Shown: positions 14,045 through 41,952 of the stretch, one piece after another
Position numbering within the stretch: the first letter of the stretch is position 1
Layout of the letters: the number at the start of each line of letters is the position of its first letter
Assembly (NCBI GenBank): GCA_913062975.1
Contig: CAJXZO010000007.1
Span: 1 to 46,536, forward strand
Direction of reading: 5' to 3'
Source: an uncultured Micrococcales bacterium
Lineage (GTDB): Bacteria; Actinomycetota; Actinomycetes; Actinomycetales; Microbacteriaceae
DNA length: 46,536 nucleotides
Translations under genes and position numbers: made by a program
The notes under the pieces: generated by a model
Told to the model about the DNA's origin: nothing
Databases searched by the model: none
The model's input: only the letters and a program-made list of their open reading frames with translations

Positions 14045-15379
14045 TTGAAGCTTAAAATTGCACTTTCATTAGCCATTTCATCGGCATTCATCGCCCAAGC
14101 ATCACTTGCTGCTCCAACCGGAGCACCAGGGTTTGATCTGGTCAATCTCGGTGAGGCCAGAGAGCTGAACCTAACCGGAAACGGGATGTCAATTGCATTC
14201 ATTGATGTCGGCCTAACAGCCAGCCACCCTTATTTCGAGGGCCGAGTTGTCGATGGTGTCTGTGTCTCAAACACTTCAAGTTGTCCAAATAAAAGCAACT
14301 ATCAGACAGGTGTTGAAGCTGCCGAGGCACCACCCGATGTTTTTACCAATCCAGCTGAGGATTCAAACCACGGAAACATGGTGGCAGGCATCGCAGCCGG
14401 AGGCTTAGACGTTGATGTTCAAATACCGGGCGGTGTTGCACCAGAGGCGAACATCATCATGGCTCGCGATGACACCAGGACAGTCCGCGGCATGATCAGG
14501 TCACTGGATTATTTTTATGAGGTCCGTGAACAACACAATCTGCAGGCTGTCAGCATCTCCATGGGAAGATTCCCCTCCAGGGCTAACATGCTCTCTTGCG
14601 AAAGTGATTCGCCAGCCCTTGCCACCAGCGTGCAAAGACTAGTTGATGCAGGAATCCCGGTTTTTGCAGCTGCCGGCAATGAGCAAAACCCATATGGAAT
14701 GCTGCTTCCAGCATGTTTACCAAATGTGATTAGCGTCGGTGCGGTTGAAAACAGCGGGGTGGTGGCGAACTGGACTAATGGTGGTGAATCCTTGGACGTG
14801 TTTGCGCCCTACTACCTGCCAACCGCTGATTACTTTGGCTACATGCAGGGAAGTGGAACAAGTGCTGCAACACCTTTGGTGGCTGCAAGTTTCTTATTGG
14901 CAAGAGAAATAAACCCCGAGGTGACAATCAATGAGTTCAAAACAGCAATTGATCAAACCGGATTTCTAACCAAAGATGTACTGTCAGATGCCTCCCGCAT
15001 CGACATTGGTGGGATGGTCAATGCGGTTGCTGATTTGGCAGATGGTGACACCACGGCAAACCTTGGAAACATTGGACCAGATGATGGCGAGCAAAAGGTT
15101 TGGATGAGAAGAATCAGTGACTCCCAGGTGAAGTTTTATGCGAAGTATCCTCAGCTGAATCAAAAGATTCAATTCATGGCACAGGGGGACAGTGGTGAAT
15201 ATGAGGAGTTTGCATGGGTTCGCATTGAACAGTCAGATCTCTACGGCAATGGTGACTACCGAAATCTAACCAATGATATTTATTTTGTTAGGACCTACGA
15301 GCTAGAGCTTGGCAAAAACAGACTACGAATTTACATCGACGGTGAAGATGCGATCGGCACTAAAACTTATAGCCGTTAG
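14045..15379 (+). CDS. Secreted subtilisin-family (S8) protease with a novel C-terminal module
   Basis: A 444-residue exported serine protease. A Sec signal peptide occupies residues ~1-23 (cleavage near ASLAA). The S8 catalytic residues are all visible: Asp54 (AFIDVG), His109 (NHGNMVAG), oxyanion Asn212 (AAGN) and Ser273 (GTSAATP). There is no recognisable I9 propeptide; the catalytic domain starts almost at once. Residues ~350-444 form a separate module (W353, VKFYAK 362-367, KIQF 374-377, WVR 391-393, VRT 415-417, GKNRL 423-427) that recurs at the end of the giant surface protein starting at 43456. The TTG start at 14045 has a strong AGGGGAG ribosome site. The last 32 bases overlap the lipoprotein gene, which suggests joint function. 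Confidence 0.9.
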   Translation: MKLKIALSLAISSAFIAQASLAAPTGAPGFDLVNLGEARELNLTGNGMSIAFIDVGLTASHPYFEGRVVDGVCVSNTSSCPNKSNYQTGVEAAEAPPDVFTNPAEDSNHGNMVAGIAAGGLDVDVQIPGGVAPEANIIMARDDTRTVRGMIRSLDYFYEVREQHNLQAVSISMGRFPSRANMLSCESDSPALATSVQRLVDAGIPVFAAAGNEQNPYGMLLPACLPNVISVGAVENSGVVANWTNGGESLDVFAPYYLPTADYFGYMQGSGTSAATPLVAASFLLAREINPEVTINEFKTAIDQTGFLTKDVLSDASRIDIGGMVNAVADLADGDTTANLGNIGPDDGEQKVWMRRISDSQVKFYAKYPQLNQKIQFMAQGDSGEYEEFAWVRIEQSDLYGNGDYRNLTNDIYFVRTYELELGKNRLRIYIDGEDAIGTKTYSR

Positions 15380-21190: not shown

Positions 21191-21217
21191 TTTGCCAAAT
21201 AGATTCGGAGAATGAGC

Positions 21218-22357
21218 ATGAGAGTAGCCATTGTCACCGAATCCTTTCTTCCATCAGTCAACGGTGTTACCAACTCGGTTTTGAGAATCTTGGACACCTT
21301 CAAGCAACGTGGTTTTGAGGCCTTAGTAATCGCACCAACCAGAACCAGTGATAAACACAACGGATATCCGGTGCACCAAACTGTTTCAGTTCCTTTTTTG
21401 CAATTTCCAGTTGCCTTCCCGGGACCCTCAATTCAACGAGAACTTGATGAGTTTTCGCCAGATGTTGTTCACGTGGCGGCACCCTTCATGATTGGTGCCC
21501 AGGCAATTGCATGGGGCCATAAAAACAATGTTCCGGTGGTGGCGGTCTATCAAACAGACCTAAGCGGTTATATAGAGAGATACGGGCTTAGCTTTGCTCG
21601 TCCCGTGGTTGATCGAATGATGTCCAGCATTCACGAAAAAGCAGACATTAACCTGGCTCCAACACCTGAGGCCGCCGAATATCTAAAAGACATCGGAGTT
21701 GAAAACGTTTATGTCTGGGGCAGGGGGGTTGATTTGGATCTTTTCAACCCAAATCACAAAAACTCCGAAGAGGTGAAGGCCCTAAGAAAACAAATTGCTG
21801 CCAATGGTGAAACCATCATCGGTGTTGTCGGTCGCTTGGCTGCTGAAAAGCAAGTTCATCGAATGTCGGAGCTTTTTGGTTTGAAAAACACTCGGTTTGT
21901 GGTGGTCGGGGATGGTCCCGAGCGATCAAGACTAGAAAGTCAGTTTCGAGGAAACGGTGTTTATTTTGCAGGCAGAAAAACTGCTTTGGATCTGGCGCAT
22001 CACTATGCAGCCTTGGATATCTTTGTTCACTTTGGAACTGAGGAAACCTTTGGCCAAACCATTCAGGAGGCACAAGCAACCGGGCTTCCGGTGGTGGCTC
22101 CCAATGTAGGTGGACCTAAATACTTGATTGAGCATGGCATAACTGGCTTTTTGGCAAACCCAGAGGGCCAGGGTGGTTATCAGCGTTTGGTCAGGTCTGT
22201 TTTAGAGGATGAGGTCTTGCGAAGAAAGATGGCAGCAAAGGCCCGCGAGGCAGTGGCCTCAAAGTCCTGGGAGGCGAATAACGCAAGGCTAATCGGGTTT
22301 TATGAACAGGCTGTGAGAGAAATGGCCACTAAGGAAGCGCGTATTGAATTGGCTTGA
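21218..22357 (+). CDS. GT4 glycosyltransferase, MgtA/PimB-like
   Basis: A 379-residue GT-B glycosyltransferase of family GT4. The N-terminal domain opens with ESFLPSVNGVTNSV, typical of the mannosyltransferase MgtA/PimB group, and the nucleotide-sugar domain has the E-x7-E motif in EETFGQTIQEAQATG. An ATG at 21212 is also in frame, but the GGAG at 21207-21210 is correctly spaced only for the ATG at 21218. The likely role is transfer of mannose from GDP-mannose to a membrane glycolipid; the acceptor is not shown by sequence. It overlaps the DedA gene by 14 bases. Confidence 0.85.
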   Translation: MRVAIVTESFLPSVNGVTNSVLRILDTFKQRGFEALVIAPTRTSDKHNGYPVHQTVSVPFLQFPVAFPGPSIQRELDEFSPDVVHVAAPFMIGAQAIAWGHKNNVPVVAVYQTDLSGYIERYGLSFARPVVDRMMSSIHEKADINLAPTPEAAEYLKDIGVENVYVWGRGVDLDLFNPNHKNSEEVKALRKQIAANGETIIGVVGRLAAEKQVHRMSELFGLKNTRFVVVGDGPERSRLESQFRGNGVYFAGRKTALDLAHHYAALDIFVHFGTEETFGQTIQEAQATGLPVVAPNVGGPKYLIEHGITGFLANPEGQGGYQRLVRSVLEDEVLRRKMAAKAREAVASKSWEANNARLIGFYEQAVREMATKEARIELA

Positions 22358-23851: not shown

Positions 23852-23970
23852 GGAACCATGAACTCGCGGCTGCTGAAAGATTATGCAAAAACAAGGTTAA
23901 GTGTTGCTGGCTATTGCGTGAACTCAAATTTGCCAACGAGCCTATGCGGGTCAAGTTTGAGCACACGCTC

Positions 23971-23976
23971 TAGACT
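23971..23976 (+). promoter_or_regulatory. -10 box close to the DUF3048 lipoprotein start
   Basis: TAGACT ends seven bases before the ATG at 23984, so the transcript would start at or one base before the AUG (leaderless). No ribosome site precedes the ATG, which agrees. No -35 is obvious. Confidence 0.4.
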
Positions 23977-23983
23977 TGCAATC

Positions 23984-25165
23984 ATGCCTTCTAAGCTTTC
24001 AAAACCGCTGAGCTTGCTTGCCCTGCTTACCCTGATCCCAATTGGGCTAACCTCGTGTGCAACTGAGGCTGAGCCTGAAACACCAGACACCACTGACACC
24101 GGTGCCTCTGAGCAACAACCAGAGCCCGAACCGGAGCCGGAGCCTGTGTATGTGCAGGCACCGCTTAGCGGAATTAGCTACCTAGAGGACTCAAACCCTT
24201 TTTTGGAAGGTCCTGCGCTTACTGCAAAGATTGATAATTACCCACCAGCCCGACCACAAACCGGCATTGGCAGTGCAGACATTGTCTATGTTCAAAGGGT
24301 TGAGGGTGGAATCACCAGGTTTGTAAGCATTTGGCACTCCTCGATTCCTGACACCTTTGGGCCGCTTCGCTCAATCAGACCAATGGATCCAAACATCGTA
24401 AGTCCCTATGACGGCGTATTTGCCTACTCCGGCGGACAAGACCCATTCGTGTTTGCAAGTCTGGAAACAGATCTATATAACGCTTATGAAGACAGTGAAG
24501 TTGGAGCTGAAACACTTTTTCGCAACGAGGGAATTGGAAAACCCTATGAACACACGTTGTATGGAAGGGGAACGCTGCTGATTGAAACTCACTCCGAACT
24601 CCCCGCCCCCACCCCTCACCTGAATTACATAGACCTTGAAAACCGTTCAGAACTGTCAACTGCCAATGGCACCGAGTTTGATTATTTTGAGATCACCTAT
24701 GAAGAGGCAACATCGAGATGGGATGTTGGTTCTGGTGAATTTAGTTTTGACACCCAGGGGATGGCTTTGCCAACCGGTGAGATGAGTGTTCAAACAGGAT
24801 TGCTCAGAACGCAGGATGAGGAAATCATGGTGGATGAGCGCACGGGTGTTCAGATTGCTGCCAAGAATTTGATTGTCATGAACACCACCTTGGATTTCAG
24901 CTTTAAGGATCCGAAATACGGATCCGTGCCAGAAACGGTGTTGCTCACACAGGGTGATGGCTGGGCATTCAGTGATGGCAAATACATCGAGATTTTGTGG
25001 TCAAAGGAATCAAGAACTGACCACATTCAATTTACGACCCTAGATGGTGACCCCCTCAAATTACTCCCCGGCCCCACCTGGATTGAATTTAGAGACATTG
25101 GTAATTCAAATGAAGCTGGCATGGATATCTATCCAAAACCAGAACCTGTGGAGCCAACTGAGTAA
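23984..25165 (+). CDS. DUF3048 (YerB-like) lipoprotein
   Basis: A 393-residue predicted lipoprotein. A signal peptide with lipobox LTSC (Cys near residue 26) is followed by an acidic linker with a Glu-Pro repeat (EPEPEPEP). The DUF3048 domain then begins at TAKIDNYPPARPQTG, with ADIVYVQRVEGGITRF and FGPLRSIRP as the conserved core. The frame is open 42 codons upstream to 23858, but only the ATG at 23984 places the signal peptide at the N-terminus. The function of the family is not established. It is coupled to the DUF2256 gene by TAATG. Confidence 0.87.
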   Translation: MPSKLSKPLSLLALLTLIPIGLTSCATEAEPETPDTTDTGASEQQPEPEPEPEPVYVQAPLSGISYLEDSNPFLEGPALTAKIDNYPPARPQTGIGSADIVYVQRVEGGITRFVSIWHSSIPDTFGPLRSIRPMDPNIVSPYDGVFAYSGGQDPFVFASLETDLYNAYEDSEVGAETLFRNEGIGKPYEHTLYGRGTLLIETHSELPAPTPHLNYIDLENRSELSTANGTEFDYFEITYEEATSRWDVGSGEFSFDTQGMALPTGEMSVQTGLLRTQDEEIMVDERTGVQIAAKNLIVMNTTLDFSFKDPKYGSVPETVLLTQGDGWAFSDGKYIEILWSKESRTDHIQFTTLDGDPLKLLPGPTWIEFRDIGNSNEAGMDIYPKPEPVEPTE

Positions 25166-25311: not shown

Positions 25312-26322
25312 ATGATCGTGACGATAACTGGCGCCTATAAAAACGCAGGCGATCACCTGATTGGTCTCAGGGCGAAAAAGCTATTGGAAACCTTTGTTGA
25401 TGCCGATGTAATCAACATGGACAGAAAACAAACTATTGATTATGAGCTTCTAAACTCCGCTCGGATGGTGTTGCTCACCGGGGGACCAGCACTGCAACCA
25501 GCAGTTTTCCCCGATGTCTATAGTCTCGATCTTTCCAAAATCAATGTTCCCGTCACAATGTTTGGTCTTGGTTGGAAAGCAGGGCTTGGCAAGACAGTTG
25601 GTGAGTTTGCATTCAAACCAGATGCCAGTGTTTTTCTAGATTCGTTGGCTCAACAAGAGTTGCCGGTTTCGGCAAGAGATTTTTCATCGGCAGAGCTTTT
25701 GAAAACAAAGGGGTTTTCAGAGGTTTTGATGACTGGATGTCCCGCTTGGTATGAAATAGAAAAAATAGAGGCTGATTATGACCTACCTGCAGAAATCAAC
25801 TCAGTGGTCCTCACCGCACCTGCAGTCCCCAATCAGCAAATGTTGAAAATTGCCAAGGATATAAAAAAGCAATTTCCCAAAGCCGAAAAAACACTGCTGT
25901 TTCAATCCGGCTTTAGCTCAACTCATTCAAAAAAATCAGTCGAATACTCAAAAACACTAAACAGATTTAGATCTAAACTTGCGCGCGCTGGTTGGCAAGT
26001 GGTTTCCTCTGAATCGGAGGTTACCAAGATGATGAGTGTTTTGACTGAGGCTGACCTGCACGTTGGCTACCGCGTCCACAGCCATCTGTTTATGCTCAGC
26101 CAAAGAAAGGCCTCTTTGTTGATTGCGGAAGATGCTAGAGGGGAAAGCCAGAACAAAACCCTCGGCCTTGCAGATCTGAACACCTTGAGCTCAGCGGCTG
26201 AGATCAAAAACCAAATGATAAATGTGATTGAGAATCCAGAGGTTATAAACAGTGCCATTGGCCAGATGCGGCAGAGTTATCAGCAGATGCAGGAGTATTT
26301 GGCAAAACTAAAGGTTTTGTGA
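25312..26322 (+). CDS. Polysaccharide pyruvyl transferase-family protein (1)
   Basis: A 336-residue protein of the polysaccharide pyruvyl transferase superfamily (CsaB/WcaK-like GT-B fold). It opens with GAYKNAGDHLIGLRAKK, has the MVLLTGGPALQP segment and ends with HVGYRVHSHLF, where the family carries its conserved Arg and His. Members add ketal-linked pyruvate from PEP to glycans. The gene sits at the left end of the polysaccharide locus, nine bases after the DUF2256 gene, and overlaps the convergent galU by 15 bases. It may modify the glycan made by the genes to its right. Confidence 0.75.
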   Translation: MIVTITGAYKNAGDHLIGLRAKKLLETFVDADVINMDRKQTIDYELLNSARMVLLTGGPALQPAVFPDVYSLDLSKINVPVTMFGLGWKAGLGKTVGEFAFKPDASVFLDSLAQQELPVSARDFSSAELLKTKGFSEVLMTGCPAWYEIEKIEADYDLPAEINSVVLTAPAVPNQQMLKIAKDIKKQFPKAEKTLLFQSGFSSTHSKKSVEYSKTLNRFRSKLARAGWQVVSSESEVTKMMSVLTEADLHVGYRVHSHLFMLSQRKASLLIAEDARGESQNKTLGLADLNTLSSAAEIKNQMINVIENPEVINSAIGQMRQSYQQMQEYLAKLKVL

Positions 26323-27189
26323 AAAGCCCTTCAGCCATTCTCTGAGCTCATCTCCGATGTCCTCGCGGTCAACAGCAACTTGAATTGTTGATTTTAGATA
26401 ATCCAATTTGTCACCGGTGTCATAGCGTCTTCCCGAGAAAACCACTCCGAAAACCTTGTCCGCAGCTGCCTCGTGAGCAAGCGCATCTGTCAGCTGGATT
26501 TCATCACCTCTGCCGGCAGGGGTGTTCTCTAAAGTTTCAAAAATCCTTGATTTCAAAACATAGCGACCAATCACGGCCAAGTTTGAAGGAGCCTGATCGG
26601 CAGTCGGTTTCTCAACCAGCGCCTTGACTCTGACAACACCCTCATCCTCGGTTTTTTCAACCGCGGCTGAGCCATAAAGATGAATCGACTCCATGGGGAC
26701 TTCCATAAGCGCCACCACGTGGGCATCGTATTTTTGGTGAGCATCAAGCATTTGAGGCAAAAGCTGATCTCTCGCATCAATCATGTCATCACCAAGCAAC
26801 ACTGCAAATGACTGTTCGGCAACGTGAGCCTTGGCTCTGAGCACCGCATGCCCTAAACCCTTTGGGTCACCCTGTCGGGTGTAGTGGATGTTGGCAAGGG
26901 AGTTTGAAAATGCCACCTGGCTCAACCTGCCAACATCGCCCTTGAGCTGCAAAGCTGATTCAATCTCGGTGGCTTTATCAAAGTGATTTTCCAGGGCATT
27001 TTTGTTCCTACCCGTGATCATTAGCAGATCCGCCAGTCCCGCTCTGGCAGCTTCCTCCACCACATACTGAATCACTGGTTTGTCAACAATGGGAAGCATC
27101 TCCTTGGGCATGGCCTTTGTTGCAGGAAGGAATCTTGTTCCCAACCCGGCAGCGGGGATTACCGCCTTGTTTACTCTTTGATTGCTCAT
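26308..27189 (-). CDS. galU: UTP--glucose-1-phosphate uridylyltransferase
   Basis: A 293-residue nucleotidyltransferase that makes UDP-glucose from UTP and glucose-1-phosphate. The N-terminal signature AVIPAAGLGTRFLPATKAMPK, then the active KPVIQYVVEEA and VEKPT with GRGDEIQLTDAL, are all typical of bacterial GalU. Its product feeds UDP-glucose 6-dehydrogenase at 41949 and glycosyltransferases of the locus. The ATG overlaps the upstream flippase-like gene's stop by one base (TAATG). Confidence 0.95.
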   Translation of the reverse strand: MSNQRVNKAVIPAAGLGTRFLPATKAMPKEMLPIVDKPVIQYVVEEAARAGLADLLMITGRNKNALENHFDKATEIESALQLKGDVGRLSQVAFSNSLANIHYTRQGDPKGLGHAVLRAKAHVAEQSFAVLLGDDMIDARDQLLPQMLDAHQKYDAHVVALMEVPMESIHLYGSAAVEKTEDEGVVRVKALVEKPTADQAPSNLAVIGRYVLKSRIFETLENTPAGRGDEIQLTDALAHEAAADKVFGVVFSGRRYDTGDKLDYLKSTIQVAVDREDIGDELREWLKGFSQNL

Positions 27190-28091
27190 TATTTTCCAAG
27201 CCTAGCCAGTAAGTAGAAAATCAAGTCCCAAATGATGCTCATTAGCCTCATCATGACTGTGATTGCCAAAGCTAACTCACCTGAAACAATCAGGCTTAGC
27301 CCGATTATAAGAACACCTTCTCTGACTCCCAACCCCGCGGGGGCAATCACCACCAGAATGCTCAAAGCTGAGGCAAGTGCTGAAATTCCGAGAATCAGAA
27401 ATCCATTTGAAACAAGGTCAACATCAAACGAAACTGCTACCAGCAATAAACTCAGAGCATTGAGAATGCTGGTTATAAAAAACAGCCCGCTGGTTTTTAG
27501 CACTGTTTTCGAATCCAATAGCTCATCAGTGTTGATGGCTTTTTTGCGAATGATCTTATGTGTGAATGAGACCACGGAGTTGAAAACCTTGGGAGCGATT
27601 GAGATGAGTCCAATGATTGAAACAATCACCAGCAAAACTTGATAGCCACCTGCAAGCTCTGCAATGGTTGGATCAAATAGCAACAGCAGTGAGGCCAGTG
27701 ACATCACAATCACCAACTGTTGCATTGCCTCCATCAGCGAGGAAACGGCTAGTTTGGTTTTTGTAATGCCGAGGTTTGATGCAAAGTAAATCTTCCCAAT
27801 CACCCAGCCGGCTGAGACTGGCAAATACCTGCCAAGCCAAGCCTTTGCATAAACAGCCAATAGCTCGGCAGATAGCTTTTGATCAATCTCCGCACCCATG
27901 CCTGAAAGAAGCACTCTCCAAATAAGAGCGAAGATAAACCTGGCGGCGATTGCAACCAGACTGGCAAGAGCAATCAAAAACCAGTCGATTTCAAAGCTGA
28001 AAATCGCTGTTAGGTCCAGGGTTGTGGCGAAGGCGACCAAAAATCCAACGACCAGGATGTAAAAAACCAGCGAGAGGATTTTTCTGGTCAT
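27189..28091 (-). CDS. LPG-synthase TM/flippase-like membrane protein (UPF0104)
   Basis: A 300-residue protein with about eight membrane segments. It matches the lysylphosphatidylglycerol-synthase transmembrane (UPF0104, AglD-like) family: the segment YLPVSAGWVIGKIYFASNLGI and the motif APAGLGVREGVLI near residue 250 are characteristic. Only the flippase-type domain is present, without a tRNA-dependent synthase domain. In a glycan locus this suggests a lipid-linked intermediate handler, but the function is inferred. It overlaps the upstream pyruvyl transferase gene by ATGA. Confidence 0.75.
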   Translation of the reverse strand: MTRKILSLVFYILVVGFLVAFATTLDLTAIFSFEIDWFLIALASLVAIAARFIFALIWRVLLSGMGAEIDQKLSAELLAVYAKAWLGRYLPVSAGWVIGKIYFASNLGITKTKLAVSSLMEAMQQLVIVMSLASLLLLFDPTIAELAGGYQVLLVIVSIIGLISIAPKVFNSVVSFTHKIIRKKAINTDELLDSKTVLKTSGLFFITSILNALSLLLVAVSFDVDLVSNGFLILGISALASALSILVVIAPAGLGVREGVLIIGLSLIVSGELALAITVMMRLMSIIWDLIFYLLARLGK

Positions 28092-29278
28092 AGACCGATT
28101 TCCTGAAAAGCCGCGTTTAGGTCAATCAGCAATTGAGTTCGCATTTTCTCAACTTCATTTTCCTGCTCTTTGGAGATAAACATCGCATCATCTTGAAACT
28201 TCACTAAGTCCCTGGTGATGATTGCTGGAAACTCTTTCTCCTGCATGCGCTTGATTGGATAGCTGAATTCCTCCAATCCAAGCTGTTCGAAAAACAATCT
28301 GCCCTTATCAACGTAATAAACCACCATTGCCGGCACCTGCGCCACGGTTGCCAATATGGTGCTGTGTAGTCGGCTTCCAATAAACCACTCTGCTCTGGCA
28401 ACCAAAGCTAGAAAATCATCAGGGGAGAGGTTGTCCTTTTCCACCACCTTGGCCACCTCTGGATGTTTCATCTTGGCGATTACCTGTTTGGCAAACTCAA
28501 CGTCTCCCTCGGATGGGTGAGTGTGCATTGGGAAAAACACCACGTGTTTTTTCTGGCGGATGAATATTTTGTCTGCGATATCAGCCCAAGCTTCTATGTA
28601 GCGAAGCTCAGCGTCAGACTGAGGTTGTGTTTTTCTAAACCTGTTCGGCAAAAACCCACCGGGTTGATAGTGAAACCATCTCCTGAGACCAAGACCAACA
28701 AAGCCTCTGCCGTATTTCTCCAGCTCTGGGTTGGTGGAAACATCAGCTGCAAAAGAAGAGACAAACACCGCAGGGTCGAAACTTGGAATCAGTGTTGTTT
28801 CCGCCCCCCAGTGGGTGAGCTTGTGAACAGACTCTTGGTCACGGGTTATGAAAACCTTGCAAAGGTTCACTGTTTTTGCAATCAGCTGCTTGGAGTGCTC
28901 TGAGTTGGTTGGACCAATTCCCTGAAAAGCACCAATGATGTTTTTGTTTGCAAGCCTGATGGCAGTCAATTTCAGCAACCAGTAATAAAGCGAGAGTCGA
29001 TTGGTGTAATCTTTCAGCAGTTCACCACCCCCCCACATCACCACATCTGCTTTTTTAGCGGCAAGCATTAGTCGAATCAATGCAAAAGGTGAGGTTGAGT
29101 AGGGGCTAAAGGGCAAAAACTTGATTCGAAACCATTCTGTGTCTCGCTCTGGGAACTGACTCAGGGCCGTGATTTGAGAATCAGGTCTAACGGATTGAAT
29201 TAATTCAATCAGCCCAGCCAGAATTGCCCGATCACCTCGGTTATGAGGTGAATCGCTATTCAATATCAGCACCTTCAT
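28088..29278 (-). CDS. Polysaccharide pyruvyl transferase-family protein (2)
   Basis: A 396-residue second member of the polysaccharide pyruvyl transferase family. It begins VLILNSDSPHNRGDRAIL, carries VVMWGGGELLKDY, FITRDQESVHKL and FIGSRLHSTILA, which are the family's glycine-rich and Arg/His motifs. It is longer and better conserved than the paralogue at 25312. The ATG at 29278 is preferred to a TTG two codons upstream; TAAGTT at 29292-29287 on the same strand ends eight bases before it. It leads a three-gene unit with the flippase-like gene and galU. Confidence 0.82.
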   Translation of the reverse strand: MKVLILNSDSPHNRGDRAILAGLIELIQSVRPDSQITALSQFPERDTEWFRIKFLPFSPYSTSPFALIRLMLAAKKADVVMWGGGELLKDYTNRLSLYYWLLKLTAIRLANKNIIGAFQGIGPTNSEHSKQLIAKTVNLCKVFITRDQESVHKLTHWGAETTLIPSFDPAVFVSSFAADVSTNPELEKYGRGFVGLGLRRWFHYQPGGFLPNRFRKTQPQSDAELRYIEAWADIADKIFIRQKKHVVFFPMHTHPSEGDVEFAKQVIAKMKHPEVAKVVEKDNLSPDDFLALVARAEWFIGSRLHSTILATVAQVPAMVVYYVDKGRLFFEQLGLEEFSYPIKRMQEKEFPAIITRDLVKFQDDAMFISKEQENEVEKMRTQLLIDLNAAFQEIGL

Positions 29279-29286
29279 CGCCAATA

Positions 29287-29327: not shown

Positions 29328-30461
29328 GTGGGTGAGAAACCGAGGCTGTTGGTGTTGGCCACCACCTTCCCTAAATCACTCAACGACGGCACCCCAAGTT
29401 TTGTTCTAGACATCGCTCGAGAACATGCAAAAAGCTTTGATGTTTGGGTGTTGACCCCGATGGTTCCAGGAGCCAAAAGATGGGAAACCATCGATGGTGT
29501 CCGCATCTCCAGATTTCACTATTTGTTTCCAGCAACCGAGGACTTGGCGGATGGCTCCATCATGGACAACCTGCGCAAGTCTTTTTACCAAAAACTACAA
29601 CTGCCCTTCATGATCGCCAGTTTTAGCTATCGGTTCCTGTTCAGAGTGCTTATCTGGAAACCAGATGTCATCCATGCACACTGGATTATTCCTGGCGGGT
29701 TGGTCAGCAAATTAGCCCCATGGGTGCCAAGGGTGATAACAACCCATGGTGGGGATGTTTATGCACTGAATAGCAGGTTCATGCTGGCTCTAAAAAGATT
29801 CATACTGAATTCAGCTTCGGTAACTGCGGTCAATGGTGAAATGTCTGAGAAGTTAATCTCTAACTCATTGACCGACCAAGCAGAGGTGATTCCAATGGGG
29901 GTCAAATTGGACAACCTAGATGTTGAAAAAACACCCGGGCAAATAGTATTTGTTGGCAGGTTGGTTGAGAAAAAGGGTCTGAAGTATTTACTGGAAGCGG
30001 TGAAAAACCTGGATTGCCAACTAAAGGTGATTGGCGATGGACCACTAGCTGAATCACTAAAACCGAATGCAGCAGACAATGTTGAGTTTCTGGGACAGTT
30101 ATCAAAAGCAGAGGTAATGCGGGTGATTGCTCAGAGTGAGCTAATGGTGATTCCAAGCGTTATTGCCGAAAACGGTGACCGGGAGGGACTTCCGGTGACA
30201 CTTATGGAGGCAGCCAGCAATCAAACAGCTGTAATCGCCAGCAATCTCAGTGGCATAAATGAAGTGGTGATTGATGAGGAGACAGGACTACTCACCGATC
30301 AAAGAGACGTCGAAGCTTTGAAAACTGCAATTAGTAGATTGCTTGATGATGATGAAACAAGAATCAGGCTTCAGCGAGCACTTTATGAAAAGGCAAAGGA
30401 TTTTGACATCGAACAGATAGCCCAGAGATATCGGGATGTAATCATGCGGGAGTTGAAATGA
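29328..30461 (+). CDS. GT4 glycosyltransferase
   Basis: A 377-residue GT-B glycosyltransferase of family GT4. The N-terminal domain has TTFPKSLNDGTPSFVLDIA and HAHWIIPGG; the C-terminal domain has VFVGRLVEKKGLKYLLEA and the E-x7-E motif in REGLPVTLMEAAS. The GTG start follows a -10 box by six bases. It leads a three-gene plus-strand operon with the next gene and the nonulosonate synthase, each overlapping the last, so it probably adds a sugar of the same repeat unit. Confidence 0.85.
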   Translation: MGEKPRLLVLATTFPKSLNDGTPSFVLDIAREHAKSFDVWVLTPMVPGAKRWETIDGVRISRFHYLFPATEDLADGSIMDNLRKSFYQKLQLPFMIASFSYRFLFRVLIWKPDVIHAHWIIPGGLVSKLAPWVPRVITTHGGDVYALNSRFMLALKRFILNSASVTAVNGEMSEKLISNSLTDQAEVIPMGVKLDNLDVEKTPGQIVFVGRLVEKKGLKYLLEAVKNLDCQLKVIGDGPLAESLKPNAADNVEFLGQLSKAEVMRVIAQSELMVIPSVIAENGDREGLPVTLMEAASNQTAVIASNLSGINEVVIDEETGLLTDQRDVEALKTAISRLLDDDETRIRLQRALYEKAKDFDIEQIAQRYRDVIMRELK

Positions 30462-31729
30462 AGCTTGATGAGTTTTGGGAAAGATTTCAAAGTGTTGAAA
30501 GAAAGACAAAGGCTCTGGATTTCAAGGTTTTAGGTTTTCAGATTTGGCCGCTTTTGAGAACCAAAATGTTTTATCAAATTTCAACTCAGATTGGAATCTT
30601 CGATAATCCTCACCCCAACCCAGAACCGCAAGAGCCGGGGATTCCATTTGAGCCAACGAAGGCAAAATCAATAGTGGTTCCGTTTTCTCGCAAGGTAAAC
30701 GGTGAAGACCCCTACTCCTCTTGGCTAATGGGTTATTTGGATGATCCTGTGCTTATTGAGCACTCGGGCGATGGTGGTCTTGATTCGCATAAACCTAGTT
30801 TCAATGAGAAATACGAGGAGCATGTTGCAAGAGCCATGCGCAGGCTCACCAAAAAAGACCTGCCAGATAAATGGCGAATAATCATGGAGGGTTTTGAAAA
30901 AGAGTTTGGTGTTGAAATTAACTCTTATAAAGAATACCCAAAATGGTTTATTCGTCGCTCCATTGTTGAAGCAATTGGTTTTAGGTCACTTTTTAGAAAA
31001 ACAAAAGCCAAGAAGCTCTACATCGTAAACGCATACTCTCACCCAACGGTTGTGCTGGGGGCAAAGCTTGCAAACATCAGGGTTTATGAATTGCAGCATG
31101 GGTTTGTGAGTGAATTGCATCCCGCCTATTCATACCCGGATAACAAGAAAATCCAATCGTTACCTCATGTCTTTTTGTGTTGGGGAGAGTTCTGGAAAGA
31201 AAGCCTGCACCCTGCCAAAAACATGTTGGTGAAGGTCTTGGGTGCCCCCAAGGGCTTTATGCAATACATGCGAAAGCCCAGGCCCAAGCAAGAGCAAGTT
31301 CTCTTCACCAGTCAGGGTGCTGTTGGGAAGAAGCTGTTTGCATTGGCTGAAAGTGTTGCCATGAGTGATAAAAACCTCAAGGTGATCTATCGCCTGCATC
31401 CGAATGAAGATCCGGTGAATTACCTCTCTCATGTTCCCAATCTAGAGATAAGCCATAAGACCCCTTCCTTTTTAGATCTGGTTGGCTCATGTGAATATCT
31501 GGTTGGAGGGTTTTCCACCACACTGTTTGAAGGAGCTGCCCTGGGATGCAAGGTGATAGTTGCAGATGTACCGGGAATTGAAAACATCAAAAGAGCAATT
31601 GAGTCCGGTGAATTTGTTCTGTTAGAAGATCACAGTCCTCGATCAATTTATAAGGCTTTGAACCAAGCTCGGACAGTTGATGCCGAAAAGTATTACTCTC
31701 TTCAGAGACTGGAGGCATTGAATGCTTGA
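30458..31729 (+). CDS. Probable GT-B-type surface-glycan transferase, unassigned family
   Basis: A 423-residue soluble protein not confidently assigned. The N-terminal ~150 residues are variable. From ~185 there is a Rossmann-like strand (KLYIVNAYSHPTVVLGAK), then ELQHGFVSELHPAYSYP with a conserved-looking HG...HPxY motif. A second half resembles a nucleotide-sugar domain (YRLHPNEDP, then GGFSTTLFEGAALGCKVIV). The HP/ST-x-x-E pattern is reminiscent of capsule and sialyl/nonulosonyl transferases. It overlaps its neighbours on both sides (ATGA upstream, 8 bases with the NeuB gene), so it may be the transferase that uses the CMP-nonulosonate; that is inference. Confidence 0.6.
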   Translation: MKLDEFWERFQSVERKTKALDFKVLGFQIWPLLRTKMFYQISTQIGIFDNPHPNPEPQEPGIPFEPTKAKSIVVPFSRKVNGEDPYSSWLMGYLDDPVLIEHSGDGGLDSHKPSFNEKYEEHVARAMRRLTKKDLPDKWRIIMEGFEKEFGVEINSYKEYPKWFIRRSIVEAIGFRSLFRKTKAKKLYIVNAYSHPTVVLGAKLANIRVYELQHGFVSELHPAYSYPDNKKIQSLPHVFLCWGEFWKESLHPAKNMLVKVLGAPKGFMQYMRKPRPKQEQVLFTSQGAVGKKLFALAESVAMSDKNLKVIYRLHPNEDPVNYLSHVPNLEISHKTPSFLDLVGSCEYLVGGFSTTLFEGAALGCKVIVADVPGIENIKRAIESGEFVLLEDHSPRSIYKALNQARTVDAEKYYSLQRLEALNA

Positions 31730-32783
31730 TTTCCACCTGAATGAAAAAACCTATGGGTTTCTTAACCCCTACCTGATTGCTGAAATCGGAGTAAATCACG
31801 GAGGGGACATTGAGCTTGCTAAGAAACTCATTGATTTAGCCAAGGCCGGTGGTGCTGATGCCGCCAAGTTTCAGACCTATAAGGCTGACACTTTGGCCAG
31901 CAAGGAGACCGCCCCTGCTTATTGGGACACCTCAGAGGAGCCAACTCAGAGCCAGCATGAGTTGTTTAGTAAATATGATGTTTTTGGTGAAGCTGACTAT
32001 AAGGAACTAAAAAACTACTGTGATCAGCAGGGGATTGATTTTTTATCGACACCTTTCGATTTGGAATCGGTTGATTTCCTAGACCCACTAATGCCCTTGT
32101 TCAAAGTTGCATCAGCTGATCTCACCAACATCCCACTGTTGAGAAAAATCGCCAGCAAGAAAAAGCCAGTGCTGATGTCTGTTGGTGCATCCAGTCATGA
32201 AGAGATTCAACGCTCGATTGAGATCTTGTTGGAACACGATGTTCCGCAACTAACAATCCTGCACTGTGTTTTGAATTACCCAACCCCGCAATCACATGCG
32301 CAGTTAGCTCAAATCCCGATTCTTGCTGAAAAATTCGGTGACAGAGTTTCAATTGGCTATTCAGATCATGTGAGACCAAACCCCGATGGCAGCATGCCCG
32401 CATTAGAAACAGCTGTTTTTGCTGGTGCTCGGGTGATAGAAAAACACTTCACTGACGACAAAACAGCCAAGGGCAACGACCACTACCACGCAATGAACTC
32501 AGAGGATTTATCAAACTTTGTTGCCAAGTTAGAACAACTCAGAGAACTTCAGGGAGAACAGAAGCTGAATCTAGAGATCCAGAAAACTGCCACCATCAAT
32601 GCCCGCAGAAGAATTTTTGCTGCAGCAGACATTGCTGCTGGGGAGAAACTTAGCGAGGATAACCTGATTGCCCTTAGAGGCAATCAGGGCTTGGAGATTT
32701 CTGAGTGGGATTCGGTTTTGGGAAAAACTGCAACCAGAGACATCAGTCACGGTGATGCAATAAATTACTCAGACTTTAGCTAA
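31722..32783 (+). CDS. NeuB/PseI-family nonulosonic acid synthase
   Basis: A 353-residue synthase that condenses a six-carbon amino sugar with PEP to a nine-carbon nonulosonic acid. The NeuB domain begins IAEIGVNHGGDIELAKKLI and AAKFQTYK, with TPFD, GYSDH and VIEKHFTDD as active-site motifs. A C-terminal antifreeze-like SAF domain follows from ~295 (RRRIFAAADIAAGE). Whether the product is sialic, legionaminic or pseudaminic acid is not decided by these motifs, but the PseG-like partner at 32776 favours a pseudaminic-type acid. Its 3' end overlaps that convergent gene by eight bases. Confidence 0.9.
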   Translation: MLDFHLNEKTYGFLNPYLIAEIGVNHGGDIELAKKLIDLAKAGGADAAKFQTYKADTLASKETAPAYWDTSEEPTQSQHELFSKYDVFGEADYKELKNYCDQQGIDFLSTPFDLESVDFLDPLMPLFKVASADLTNIPLLRKIASKKKPVLMSVGASSHEEIQRSIEILLEHDVPQLTILHCVLNYPTPQSHAQLAQIPILAEKFGDRVSIGYSDHVRPNPDGSMPALETAVFAGARVIEKHFTDDKTAKGNDHYHAMNSEDLSNFVAKLEQLRELQGEQKLNLEIQKTATINARRRIFAAADIAAGEKLSEDNLIALRGNQGLEISEWDSVLGKTATRDISHGDAINYSDFS

Positions 32784-34392
32784 AAAGCCTATTCATGATT
32801 TCATCAACGATTTTCTGATTAGAACGGTTTGCAACTGAGCTAAGCGCATTTTCAGAAAGAGCCCTTCTCCTAACTGGATCAATCAAAAGGCTTTCTATGG
32901 TTTTGACCAGGTTCGGCTCACTAACCTCTGAACCAAGACCCAGCATGACAACCCCGTTTTGTTCGGTGGTATGGGAGTGTTTGAGTTCTTTCTGGTTTTG
33001 GGCCATGCAGATTGTTGGAACTCCCAGGCTTGCAAGCTCGGTAATGGTTCTGCCAGCGCTGGAAAAAGCAAGGTCTGCCTGAGCTAAAACCCTGGGCATG
33101 TTTTTTACATTTTTCAATATCTGAACATCAAGTTTCCAGTCAGCGCTGATGGGCTTAGCCCCCATTCCTCTGATGACAATTACTTGTCCCGCAAACTTAG
33201 TTTGCTCAAGTGCTGAAAGAGTTTTCTCGGCAAGCCCTGAGGGATCAGTCCCACCAAATAAAACAACGATGTGTCTAACCTCTGGTTGAAATTCGCTAAT
33301 TCTTGGCAGAGTTTCAAAACTGGGTGCCAATATCGAATACTGCAATCCAGAAAGTTGCTTGTTTTCAGCTATGGATTCATTTGGATAGAGATCACTAATT
33401 ACCAAATCGGCAAGCTGTGCTCCAAAGCCCTGGTCTTCAAAGCTTAGAATCTTGGTCTCCGGGGATAGGGTTTTTAGCTTGTGAACCAGTTGATAATCGC
33501 TATCCAGATAATCAAAAACCAACAGATCTGGTTTATCGGTTTCGATGAGGTTTGCAAACTCTGAGTCGTCAAGCGCTTGGTAGTCAAAACCAAATTGCTC
33601 AAAAAAGTTCTGCCCAAGAGGTCTCTCTGGGCTCAAGATGATTTTGAGCTTATGTCTTGCAAGTTGCTGAGCCATTGCTAACACTCTGTAAACATGACCC
33701 ATGCCCAGTTGTTCGGAACTGTCAGTTCGGAAATAAATAGTCTTTTGGCTAAAAAAGTGCTCAGCCACGGCCAAGTCACTGAAATCATCTATGTCTATTG
33801 CTTGACGCTGATCTAATTCAATTAACTCAACCGGTTGATTGATTCTGGTTTTTGATTTTTCAAAGTCAGATATTTTGCAACCAATGATTGCCCCGGTTTC
33901 CCTAAAAGATGCGGCAAGCTGTTGCCTGTTTAGTCTTTTTTCATATTCAGGCTCATAGCCCGTCTCACTTTTCCGCCAGCGAAGATGCCTGTCATCACTG
34001 ACGCTTAGAACACTCGCTGAATTGTGAAGAACTTCAAATGCGGCTAGCAGGCTTGCAGGTTCAATCAATGGTGAGGTTGGTTGCAGGGTGATCAAATAAT
34101 CATCTGATTCAGCGCCTAGTTGTCGAAGCTGATTGAGGTAGCCAAAGATGACCTCATCCAGAGTTTTTTTGCCTGTGGCATGCTCGGGCTCGATGATTAT
34201 CTTCGCCCCCACCAATTCGCCAACCTCGGCTATTTCATCATCGTCTGTAATCAGCACAGTGTTCGCCGTCACCTCTAAAGCTGCAGTTAGTGCATGCTGA
34301 ACCATTGGTTTTCCATTTAGTAACCAGAGGTTTTTTCGGGGGATGCCAACGGAGCCGCCGCGAGCGGGAATGACAATCCAGTTATTGCTCAT
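32776..34392 (-). CDS. Fused CMP-nonulosonate cytidylyltransferase and PseG-like protein
   Basis: A 538-residue two-domain protein. Residues ~1-220 are a NeuA/PseF-type CMP-sugar synthetase: IPARGGSVGIPRKN, then LQPTSPL, then RETGAIIG and AIDIDD. Residues ~222-538 match PseG, the UDP-sugar hydrolase of pseudaminic acid synthesis: FRTDSSEQLGMGHVYR with the catalytic His, LFGGTDPSG and SSAGRTITELASLGVPT. Two non-consecutive steps are thus joined in one chain. The frame is continuous with no sign of a frameshift artefact. The ATG overlaps the stop of the upstream GT2 gene (ATGA). PseB, PseC and PseH homologues are not seen in the window. Confidence 0.85.
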   Translation of the reverse strand: MSNNWIVIPARGGSVGIPRKNLWLLNGKPMVQHALTAALEVTANTVLITDDDEIAEVGELVGAKIIIEPEHATGKKTLDEVIFGYLNQLRQLGAESDDYLITLQPTSPLIEPASLLAAFEVLHNSASVLSVSDDRHLRWRKSETGYEPEYEKRLNRQQLAASFRETGAIIGCKISDFEKSKTRINQPVELIELDQRQAIDIDDFSDLAVAEHFFSQKTIYFRTDSSEQLGMGHVYRVLAMAQQLARHKLKIILSPERPLGQNFFEQFGFDYQALDDSEFANLIETDKPDLLVFDYLDSDYQLVHKLKTLSPETKILSFEDQGFGAQLADLVISDLYPNESIAENKQLSGLQYSILAPSFETLPRISEFQPEVRHIVVLFGGTDPSGLAEKTLSALEQTKFAGQVIVIRGMGAKPISADWKLDVQILKNVKNMPRVLAQADLAFSSAGRTITELASLGVPTICMAQNQKELKHSHTTEQNGVVMLGLGSEVSEPNLVKTIESLLIDPVRRRALSENALSSVANRSNQKIVDEIMNRLFS

Positions 34393-39379: not shown

Positions 39380-40324
39380 TTAACCAACTGGGTGTTTTTG
39401 GGGAATAAACAGCATTCCAATGATGAAACCAACACCCCAGGTGTAGTGCATGATGGGAAGAACCAAAAGGATCCTCGGCTTAGTTGCGGGTTGGTTGTTG
39501 CTAAAGATTGCAATCAGCAAAACAGCAAGCATGTAAATCAAAAAGGGAAATGCAAAAACAGATGCAAACACCAACAGGGGTGGTGCGAAATAACGCAGGT
39601 TGGCATCAGCAAGTCCCTGTCTGGTTAGCCCCCCTCGCCACCTGCCAGTTTGATAAAACTGTTTAGCTAAAGCGATTGCTTTTCCTCTGGGGTGATAGGT
39701 GACTTCTAATCTGGGATCAAACCAAACAACGTGCCCCGCCCTGCGTAATCTGAGGTTTAGCTCCCAGTCCTGGCCGCGGATGAATGATTCATCAAAACCA
39801 CCGACCTCTATTAGTTTTTGCTTATCAAAGATTCCCAAATAAACACTGTCTGCGGGACCTGCTTTGCCACCTGTGTGGAAAACACCACCACCAAGTCCAA
39901 ATCTAGATTGATAGCCCCAAGCAACTGCTTTTTGAAATGGGGTTGTTCCCTTGGCAAGCATCACCCCACCAACATTGGCTGCCCCCGTTGATTTCAAAAT
40001 CTCAATTCCAGTCATCGCATAATTCTCTGAAAGCTCAGAGTGAGCATCCACTCGAATCACAATCTCACCATCCGCATTGGCAATTGCCTGATTCAGCCCA
40101 GCACTTGTCCCGCCTTTGGGGTTTTCAATCACCGTTAGTTCTGAGATTTCTTTTTCGAGCTTTTTCGCTATCTGTTTAGTTTTGTCTTTGGAGGGTGCAA
40201 CTGCCAAGATAATTTGTTTTTCATAGCCGGGCAGTGGTTGATTCAAAATGCTCTGAACAGCCCGAGCGAGATGTCTCTGTTCGTTTTTGACAGGCATCAG
40301 AAAACTGATTACTTCACTCTTCAA
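39380..40324 (-). CDS. GT2 glycosyltransferase, ExoA-like, membrane-bound
   Basis: A 314-residue family GT2 enzyme like succinoglycan glucosyltransferase ExoA. It has FLMPVKNEQRHLARAV, VIENPKGGTSAGLN, the metal site RVDAH, and RGQDWELNLRLRRAG. About three membrane helices close the C-terminus (from ~235). The frame is open to 40393, but that start would overlap the ABC ATPase gene by 80 bases; TTG at 40324 with AGGAA upstream is preferred and overlaps by 11. Start choice is moderate confidence, identity is good. Confidence 0.83.
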   Translation of the reverse strand: MKSEVISFLMPVKNEQRHLARAVQSILNQPLPGYEKQIILAVAPSKDKTKQIAKKLEKEISELTVIENPKGGTSAGLNQAIANADGEIVIRVDAHSELSENYAMTGIEILKSTGAANVGGVMLAKGTTPFQKAVAWGYQSRFGLGGGVFHTGGKAGPADSVYLGIFDKQKLIEVGGFDESFIRGQDWELNLRLRRAGHVVWFDPRLEVTYHPRGKAIALAKQFYQTGRWRGGLTRQGLADANLRYFAPPLLVFASVFAFPFLIYMLAVLLIAIFSNNQPATKPRILLVLPIMHYTWGVGFIIGMLFIPQKHPVG

Positions 40325-41117
40325 TGGTGGTTCCTGCAAACTCGGCGTATGCCTCACATACTTCCAACGCATTGCCATCCATTTTGATTTCACCCTGGTC
40401 TAACCAGATTGCTCGATTGCAAGTTGCAAGGATGGATTTCAGGCTGTGGCTAACTAGGAAAACAGTTCCCGCATTGGAAGCCAGTTGCTTCATTCTTGCC
40501 TCCGAGCGCCGTCTAAATTCACTGTCTCCAACACTCAGTGCTTCATCAACAATCAGAATCTCATGCTCCCTTGCCTGAGCAATGGCAAATTTCAACCTCT
40601 CCACCATGCCCGAGGAATAAGTCCTCATCGGAAGCTCAATGAATTGCCTGACTCCAGCAAAGTCGATGATCTCATCTAGTTTGTTTCTGACCTGGTTTTT
40701 GCTAAGCCCGATAGCAAGACCTCCCAGGATGATGTTTTTCTCACCACTGAGATCTTTCAGCATCGCAGCTCCAACACCCAAAAACGCAGGTCTGCTGGCT
40801 GCAAAGATGGAGCCCTGGTCGATTGGATTCAGCCCAGCTATGGCCTTCATCAAAGAAGTCTTTCCAGATCCATTGGAACCAATGACTCCGATGGTGTCAC
40901 CCTCATAGGCAACTAGTGATACGTCTTTGACAGCTTCAACAGTTCTTAGGTTTCCGGTTTTTTTCACCCTCGACTGGTTTGAGTTTTCAGGAATTGCCTT
41001 ACCTGATGCGAACACGCGGTAGGTGACGAAAGCACCGTCAACAATCACCTTCGGTGTCCTGTTGGCGTTAGGGGGGAGTGTGTTCTCGCCACCCACCGTG
41101 TTAGTTGACTCTGCCAT
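40314..41117 (-). CDS. Polysaccharide ABC exporter ATP-binding protein (Wzt/TagH-like)
   Basis: A 267-residue ATPase of the O-antigen/teichoic-acid exporter type. Walker A GSNGSGKTS, a signature replaced by TYSSGMVERLKFAIA as in TagH/Wzt, and Walker B ILIVDEALSVGD are visible. There is no C-terminal carbohydrate-binding domain, so export is not of the Wzt end-capping kind. The ATG at 41117 has an excellent GGAGG ribosome site; an in-frame start at 41168 would overlap the permease further. It overlaps the permease gene by 17 bases. Confidence 0.9.
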   Translation of the reverse strand: MAESTNTVGGENTLPPNANRTPKVIVDGAFVTYRVFASGKAIPENSNQSRVKKTGNLRTVEAVKDVSLVAYEGDTIGVIGSNGSGKTSLMKAIAGLNPIDQGSIFAASRPAFLGVGAAMLKDLSGEKNIILGGLAIGLSKNQVRNKLDEIIDFAGVRQFIELPMRTYSSGMVERLKFAIAQAREHEILIVDEALSVGDSEFRRRSEARMKQLASNAGTVFLVSHSLKSILATCNRAIWLDQGEIKMDGNALEVCEAYAEFAGTTIEE

Positions 41118-41952
41118 ATTTTTCCTCCGCCAACCAGAAGAAGACAAAGCCTGTGGATAACATCCCAAAAGCCCAAATCACTCCAACAATCCATTCAAAT
41201 GGGGTTGATTCATAACCACTAACAACGCTGCCTCTGGCAAGTTCCAAATAAACACTTATCGGATTAGCCCAGCGCAGAAATTCCAGAAAACCATAGGCAT
41301 CAATCAGTTTCTCAATCGAGAAAAACACCCCTGATGAATAAAACAAAAGCCTGTTCAAAAAAGGAATCAGTTGGCTCAGATCAGTGAAATCAGTGGTTAG
41401 CCTGGCGGAGAGCATGGCCAGCCCAAATGCAAATATCAACGCCAGCACAACAACACCGATAACCCCAAACCAGCTCAGACCAACAGGTTCTCCCAGGACA
41501 ATCAGAGCTAAGAGGGCTATTGGCAGTATCCCGATGAATCTTCCAAGTTGCGAAAAGGTGGAAGAAAAGGGAAGAAGAATTCTCGGGAAATCTAAAGATC
41601 TAACAATGGATGCATTACTGGTGATGGATTTAGTTCCATCAACAAAGCTTCCAGAAATGAATTGGAAAAAAACAACGCCGATGATCAAAAACGGCAAGAA
41701 GTTATCTGGTCTTGAATCTCCCAGCACCAGGCCAAAAATCAAGCCGTAGAGCGCTACCTGCATGGTCGGTGTCAATACAATCCAAATCACACCCAGTCGG
41801 GAGCGTGCAGTGGAGGCAAGCAATGTAAACCGAGCCAGGGCAAAGGCAAAGCTTCTGCGGGCCCAAAAGGATTTTAGGTAATTGCCTATTTTTGGCCTCT
41901 GCCCAACTGGCGTTAGACCGTTTTCAATTGCAAGCTGTGTTAGGTCACTCAA
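41101..41952 (-). CDS. Polysaccharide ABC exporter permease (Wzm/TagG-like)
   Basis: A 283-residue ABC-2 type permease with six membrane segments. The N-terminal cytoplasmic part contains the typical SRLGVIWIVLTPTMQVALY and the external GDSRPDNFLPFLIIGVVFFQF stretch. It is the membrane partner of the adjacent ATPase and would export the assembled lipid-linked polysaccharide. It overlaps the dehydrogenase gene by ATGA. Confidence 0.9.
   Translation of the reverse strand: MSDLTQLAIENGLTPVGQRPKIGNYLKSFWARRSFAFALARFTLLASTARSRLGVIWIVLTPTMQVALYGLIFGLVLGDSRPDNFLPFLIIGVVFFQFISGSFVDGTKSITSNASIVRSLDFPRILLPFSSTFSQLGRFIGILPIALLALIVLGEPVGLSWFGVIGVVVLALIFAFGLAMLSARLTTDFTDLSQLIPFLNRLLFYSSGVFFSIEKLIDAYGFLEFLRWANPISVYLELARGSVVSGYESTPFEWIVGVIWAFGMLSTGFVFFWLAEEKYGRVN

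Follow-up and report, generated by a model that had tools for sequence, protein, structure and literature searches.

A C-terminal module of exported proteins in a small aquatic actinobacterium, one of at least two alternative tags that may be matched to surface glycan genes

The window analyzed here is a whole contig (C7) of 46,536 bases, in which two genes for exported proteins end in the same module, referred to below as type B. The first gene (14045-15379, + strand) encodes an S8 subtilase of 444 residues with a hydrophobic N-terminus; residues 45-305 match Peptidase_S8 (E = 5e-29), and what we take to be the S8 Asp, His, and Ser motifs begin at residues 52, 108, and 269. The second (43456-46536, + strand) adjoins the gene for UDP-glucose dehydrogenase (UGDH; 41949-43259, - strand; Pfam, 59-69% identity to relatives) and encodes a giant protein with an ATG start and a hydrophobic N-terminus, the ORF of which overruns the contig end. 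As delimited by BLASTP between the two and by a 12-row profile, the type-B module lies at 15089-15376 (+ strand) in the protease and at 46309-46536 (+ strand) in the giant protein, where its 3' end is cut and it is about a dozen residues short because the contig ends inside the ORF. A TIG-like domain (46045-46248, + strand; 20.6 bits against Pfam TIG, just below the cut-off of 20.9) precedes the module of the giant protein.

In both proteins a tryptophan (W353 of the protease, at 15101, in an ORF that ends at 15379) is followed 9 residues later by VK[FM]YAK and 12 residues after that by KIQF, and VRT is followed 8 residues later by GKNRL. The two segments are 39% identical over 80 residues (E = 6e-16 in one single BLASTP comparison). 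The 12-row profile takes in both segments, so the scores that it gives per genome to the protease module (1.6e-31) and the giant's module (1.9e-33) are not independent; independent evidence comes from the giant's module alone, which retrieves the protease tail at 1.5e-9 together with 10 further places in the same genome. Chance similarity was ruled out by the E value of the pair and these genome-wide matches, and the shared module proposed in the initial annotation stands with its coordinates and spacings.

The genome that contains the window (G000; 1,136,117 bases, or 1.14 Mb, assembled and 78.8% complete) has type B at 12 places when the giant's module is the query, the giant's own included. 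The module terminates the ORF in 11 of the 12 copies; in the twelfth, that of the giant, the contig ends inside the module. In each of the ten carriers whose start is visible the N-terminal segment is hydrophobic, judged here and below by a hydropathy rule with a cut set after the values were seen rather than by a signal-peptide program, and the other two lack a start at a contig end. The cargo is varied (S8 subtilase, Trypsin_2, Chlam_PMP repeats, DUF285, L-type lectin, and Listeria-type repeats). Eight of the 12 proteins have, ahead of the module, a short linker with GP[VIL][VI][TE] at its end and a region of ~90 residues; Pfam, run on part of the eight, identifies this region as TIG above its cut-off in four and just below it in the giant. 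Mean pairwise identity among these eight is 55% for the modules versus 31% for the preceding TIG-like regions. Misbinning of contigs was considered as a source of the copies and rejected: module contigs of at least 7 kb match the window in tetranucleotide composition (correlation 0.88-0.96), all match it in GC content, and the window itself holds two copies.

Outside G000 type B is rare. The 12-row profile found it in no other genome among 197 others of the order, 2 of the genus, 397 of the family, 344 of the class, and 345 of the phylum, draws that overlap; three weak phylum matches of a 20-row profile (E 0.02-0.03) were dropped as chance after reading. One more place came from a pattern scan run over genome contigs; it lies in the MAG Aquiluna sp. 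FCJ.18 (G1208), in agreement with the earlier placement of the host among relatives of small aquatic actinobacteria. Other freshwater actinobacteria may carry such tags as well. G1208 has eight type-B matches, two of which are parts at contig ends or weaker copies, and the module of its subtilase at locus L040 is the closest relative of the protease module (51% over 101 residues). Also in G1208, an ORF of L041 (3-227) has a signal-peptide-like start followed almost directly by a type-B module of the protease kind, cut by the contig end; its product is perhaps a free-standing secreted module. The 22 genomes of this genus yielded one other match (E 5e-7), in G1225 (L129 2709-3017), where an in-frame stop parts the B-like module from the preceding stretch; the copy therefore looks decayed and may be a relic in an otherwise type-A genome (see below). 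Intact type B was found in two of the genomes searched, G000 and G1208. An origin from phages or plasmids was rejected on single-sequence searches, which reach close relatives only and found no relative of one type-B module in viral contigs, of a second in viral contigs or phages, or of one type-A module in viral contigs or plasmids.

Comparisons were made among 25 related genomes, consisting of G000, two others of its genus (G198 and G199), and the 22 of the genus of G1208. With the catalytic domain of the window protease as query, 21 of them gave a match, in 18 a strong one (E <=2e-38, G000 included); the three weak matches are to another subtilase. The subtilases of the 17 strong relatives end in a different module, type A (16 tails extracted); in G1214 the subtilase gene is broken up and the type-A tail is present. 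Type A occurs in 21 of the 25 genomes at 76 matched places, up to 10 per genome, and the counts that follow rest on 55 ORFs read out of the 76 places, two of which run off a contig. No more than 5 residues follow the module in 51 of the 53 complete ORFs, and 14-15 do in the other two; K or R is the last residue in 50/53, preceded by T in 42/53, against a K/R frequency of 19% at the ends of other ORFs (n=214), which makes the type-A terminus an unusually strict one. A search of 236 class genomes found type A in none, in a draw that held no positive genome, so that the tool rates the answer as showing nothing. For type B overall, 18 of 19 complete ORFs end no more than 4 residues past the module and the remaining one 8 residues past, with K or R last in 9/19 and thus without the C-terminal rule of type A. 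The N-terminus is hydrophobic in 41/50 type-A and 14/16 type-B ORFs with a visible start (same rule and post hoc cut).

As C-terminal signals on varied exported proteins, both modules resemble LPxTG sorting signals; LPxTG itself is absent from the last 12 residues, and a hydrophobic segment with a charged tail is also absent at these ends (over the final 40 residues, 12-residue hydropathy peaks at 1.2 in 21 type-B ORFs and at 1.9 in 55 type-A ORFs). A module at the C-terminus of different exported proteins, with neither LPxTG nor a hydrophobic anchor, is what the initial annotation had described, and the wider set bears this out: every copy read is C-terminal, no internal position was met, the carriers mostly look exported by their hydrophobic N-termini, and neither kind of anchor was found at type-A or type-B ends.

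Neither module belongs to a Pfam or NCBIfam family at the curated cut-offs (20 type-B and 16 type-A modules scanned). The best Pfam scores for the 20 type-B modules are sub-threshold (Big_7, E 0.0035; Laminin_G_3, 0.0057); in PHROGs the strongest entry by members, phrog_3540, of unknown function, matches 6/20 modules with a best E of 8e-4 over 22 residues, and the best match among PDB sequences has an E of 0.022. The best Pfam score for type A is to CBM_6 (E 2e-4; 19.8 bits versus a cut-off of 28.9 for the first member), which matches below threshold in 7/16 tails. A known domain was rejected as the identity of the module, since the Pfam, NCBIfam, PHROGs, and PDB sequence searches yielded weak matches only. 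AlphaFold, given the 20-row alignment, predicts for type B an Ig/FN3-like sandwich of seven strands (3-8, 13-19, 27-31, 34-39, 61-68, 73-80, and 83-91; pLDDT 97.6), and for type A strands in the same order (3-9, 12-18, 25-29, 32-36, 48-53, 59-66, and 69-77; pLDDT 96.2). The best PDB match of the type-B model in Foldseek is BhCBM56 (E 0.0023, TM 0.39), with MHC Ig domains next, and its VIA matches are Ig/FN3-type domains, the best of which (Z 7.3, rmsd 2.6, 84 aligned) is within the tool's stated background; the match lists of both models consist mostly of generic Ig/FN3 domains, CBM56 being also among those of type A. The modeled fold is Ig/FN3-like, with no closer kin demonstrated. The module is thus unnamed, as had been suspected; that it is no common Ig/FN3 variant is true of sequence families, none of the known ones having matched, but not of the predicted fold.

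Comparison of A with B by hhalign gives P 0.004 and a probability of 8% over 13 columns (58 columns with larger sets), while comparison with TIG gives P 0.047 for B and 0.085 for A; this is no more than a hint of common descent, without a convincing sequence match. The two types are nearly exclusive. Type B without type A is seen in G000 and G1208, and A without B in 20 genomes; G1225 combines eight A modules with the one broken B-like copy, and neither type is present in G1223 or G1229, so that exactly one type is found in 22 of the 25. That both B genomes should lie among the four lacking A has a one-sided probability of 0.02, or 0.06 if G1225 is taken as a B genome, in a calculation that ignores relatedness. 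The module is one of at least two alternative tags, which form two uncatalogued C-terminal families, and since G198 and G199 carry A and G1208 lies within a genus of A carriers, we infer that the module type changed at least twice.

The tag on the subtilase does not appear to have been exchanged alone. The catalytic core of the G000 protease is 35-41% identical to the 17 type-A cores, compared with 46-62% between the core of G199, from the same genus, and the other 16, which gives no support to a tail swapped in place on an inherited subtilase. The A subtilase was probably replaced or displaced by a divergent homologue bearing B, a reading that fits better. The G000 row, on a very long branch, fell among those of type A, and its placement is unsure. 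Six shared locus genes are 53-73% identical between G000 and G199, and two glycan genes only 22-27%.

In the window, a gene for a DUF3048 protein (23858-25165, + strand; Pfam and synteny) marks the glycan locus, as it does in relatives. Five genes that follow, ~10 kb from the B-bearing protease, form a cassette common to the window and L040 of G1208 and are given here with their identity to L040: polysaccharide pyruvyl transferase 1 (PvyT1; 25312-26322, + strand; PF04230, 41%), an LPG_synthase_TM membrane protein (27189-28091, - strand; PF03706, 42%), polysaccharide pyruvyl transferase 2 (PvyT2; 28088-29284, - strand; PF04230, 49%), a glycosyltransferase-like gene (29328-30461, + strand; 44%), identified by eye and by a weak BLAST match to the Pfam-identified glycosyltransferase at 21212-22357, and a 423-residue protein of unknown family with no Pfam match (30458-31729, + strand; 38%). 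Order and orientation of the five (38-49% identity) are the same in both genomes, with the exception that in the window a GalU-like nucleotidyltransferase gene (26308-27189, - strand; named by eye, 66-70% to counterparts in seven A loci) stands among them. A NeuB-family gene (31722-32783, + strand; PF03102) comes next, and a GT2a-like glycosyltransferase gene, named by eye and kept in A loci (39380-40393, - strand; 52-58% to full-length counterparts), and the UGDH gene lie further on. In the region 31722-34392, NeuB (Pfam) and a cytidylyltransferase-like gene (by eye) hint that the surface glycan may contain nonulosonic acid.

The same framework surrounds the type-A subtilase, which in 16 of 17 loci stands between GalU and GT2b; 14 of the 16 continue with genes for a 256-residue protein, a pyruvyltransferase of ~585 residues, GT2a, and UGDH, and two are cut by a contig end ahead of the pyruvyltransferase (GalU and GT2a in A loci were named by eye; Pfam was used as well). 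GT2b, the 256-residue protein, and this pyruvyltransferase (PvyT_A) make up the A cassette. G199 is the rearranged case, with GalU, a weakly pyruvyltransferase-like (PvyT2-like) gene, glycosyltransferase-like genes, UGDH, the subtilase, and, where the contig ends, a fragment of GT2b. In G1209, G1216, and G1219, genes for a sigma factor and a type-A exported protein come after UGDH; L029 of G1208 has UGDH, the sigma gene, and a type-B protein in the slot of the relatives' type-A proteins, with a toxin-antitoxin-like pair (by eye) between. The window retains counterparts of DUF3048, GalU, GT2a, and UGDH, between which lie PvyT1, LPG_synthase_TM, PvyT2, the glycosyltransferase-like gene, the 423-residue protein, and NeuB. 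The 17 A loci yielded no match to PvyT1, LPG_synthase_TM, or the 423-residue gene; for PvyT2 there is a partial match at 27% in G199, and for the cassette glycosyltransferase there are weak ones in G199 and G1215. The subtilase beside the cassette in L040 is a different one (catalytic part 25% identical to that of the window protease). Glycan genes, noted earlier near the module, are close to it in both B genomes and close to the type-A tag in its own loci. In L133 (G1214) the genes for the subtilase, sigma factor, GT2a, and pyruvyltransferase appear split over several frames, by decay or sequencing errors.

A different tag beside different surface-sugar genes in relatives suggests that tag and sugar are matched, and the reading that we favor, at a probability of roughly 0.5, is that the module is a C-terminal surface-retention tag fitted to the cell's own glycan. 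Carriers would be exported by means of an ordinary signal peptide, as their hydrophobic N-termini suggest, and the folded module, predicted to be Ig/FN3-like, would dock non-covalently onto the polysaccharide made by the nearby locus, which from the enzymes present is probably pyruvylated and uronic-acid-bearing. Module type would fit glycan type, so that a lineage changing its glycan cassette would also change its module, most relatives pairing type A with the A cassette, and G000 and G1208 type B with the B cassette; the subtilase with its cognate module would go with them, probably acting as a protease tethered at the surface. This reading accommodates the 12 copies that one genome has at the ends of ORFs with otherwise unrelated cargo, the hydrophobic N-termini of all ten with a start, the modules that are more alike than the TIG-like regions before them in eight proteins, the strict placement and K/R ending of type A, the single module type in 22/25 genomes, the position of 16/17 A subtilases beside GalU, and the other pyruvyltransferase cassette shared by both B genomes, beside which a different subtilase bears B in G1208. 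Against it stand the presence of intact B in just two genomes, the mixed content of G1225, the rearranged locus of G199, three genomes (G1217, G1218, and G1228) with A-like modules and no strong subtilase match, four (G199, G1213, G1221, and G1226) in which one A module each was found, and the generic fold matches.

Among known systems, the tag would resemble SLH domains in logic and type IX secretion (T9SS) C-terminal domains (CTDs) in architecture. SLH domains and the pyruvylated secondary cell wall polymer (CsaB) are a precedent in which many exported proteins share one repeatable surface module and a pyruvyltransferase gene lies in the glycan locus beside the carriers (PMC6030368, in excerpt). 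Here both the window and the A cassette contain PF04230 genes, with homologues in L040 of G1208 and 14 A loci and a weak match in G199. The SLH domain is a repeated, mostly helical domain with a Pfam family, whereas the modules described here are single, predicted all-beta sandwiches, and Pfam scans of the 20 B and 16 A modules gave no SLH match. Published T9SS CTDs are Ig-like 3+4 sandwiches that can be incompatible between species (PMC11285876, in excerpt); PMC8545088 and PMC4804311 are further papers listed for these domains. The likeness lies in the extreme C-terminal position, seven predicted strands, a conserved end, and versions that differ between relatives; the A and B models were compared by strand number and order rather than by sheet pairing. 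RemA-CTD (8gl6_D) is in the match list of type A (Z 7.1, rmsd 2.5, 68 aligned), where FN3 domains score equally. NCBIfam, which presumably holds the CTD models, gave no T9SS CTD match at its curated cut-offs for the 20 B and 16 A modules, and to our knowledge Actinobacteria differ from the T9SS setting in having no Bacteroidota outer membrane. FN3/Ig-like and CBM56-type beta-sandwiches share the overall predicted fold through generic matches; the modules differ from them in matching no sequence family at cut-off and, in all ORFs read, in standing at C-termini only. No report of such a tag in these bacteria was found in the open-license literature, going by titles and first lines, and the main text of the Luna-1 comparative paper (PMC12422013), as far as available, contains none of the terms surface, peptidase, and adhesi-.

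The T9SS likeness raises the question of whether the module is instead a cleaved sorting signal, which the locus subtilase would recognize and remove, joining the cargo to the glycan in the manner of PorU with the T9SS CTD and anionic LPS. The near-exact C-terminal placement of the modules would fit, as would the nesting of the A subtilase in the glycan locus (16/17), wearing its genome's own module type, and the non-orthologous B-bearing subtilase beside the B cassette in G1208. The only candidate processing enzyme is this module-bearing subtilase itself, yet in G1217, G1218, and G1228 A-like modules occur and no strong match to it does, its own module is the only one found in G199, G1213, G1221, and G1226, inspection by eye showed no conserved cleavage site ahead of the module, and PorU is a cysteine protease; we regard cleavage as quite improbable. 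The same low standing applies to its extension, a Gram-positive counterpart of the T9SS sortase in which the subtilase would link cargo to a pyruvylated glycan and module, subtilase, and cassette would be exchanged between species as one compatibility package.

If the module served self-assembly or docking between proteins, or were a lectin for sugars from outside, it would bind another surface protein or a foreign polysaccharide and its link to the glycan locus would be indirect. Such a role suits the generic Ig/FN3-like fold, CBM56 at the head of B's Foldseek list and among A's matches, and the sub-threshold CBM_6 matches in 7/16 type-A tails; it is unlikely given the conserved place of carriers in the glycan locus, the change of module together with cassette, and a cargo that includes proteases and PMP-like repeats and is not mainly glycan-degrading enzymes. 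The two intact B genomes and an exclusion probability of 0.02 or 0.06 before relatedness would also fit an ordinary terminal Ig/FN3 domain that had expanded in a lineage without a matched partner, with A/B exclusion and the cassette link as accidents of few genomes. Strict C-terminal position, a module more conserved than the neighboring domain, type change within two genera, and a five-gene B cassette whose order is shared by two distant genomes make this account a rather doubtful one.

A retention tag matched to the cell's glycan would suggest a way in which aquatic actinobacteria with small, streamlined cells hold exported proteases and adhesin-like giants at their surface, and it names glycan genes as candidates for testing. 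Neither of the two domain families is in Pfam or NCBIfam, and the contrast of A with B among relatives amounts to a natural swap experiment on the specificity of a C-terminal surface tag.

Regulatory and further glycan genes also lie near module genes. In several genomes a sigma-factor gene with a long C-terminal part stands between UGDH and the module-bearing exported protein (L119 10367-11839, L029 1827-3323, and equivalents), and related LuxR-type response regulators, two of them with a sensor-kinase-like gene, are encoded near module genes in A and B genomes (L013 9707-11981, L029 4926-7806, L107, L112, L113, and L122). In another part of a genome, that of G1210, three genes near type-A module genes (L114 4806-6293, 16067-17155, and 17964-18500) are similar to the window glycan genes at 34389, 35397, and 40314.
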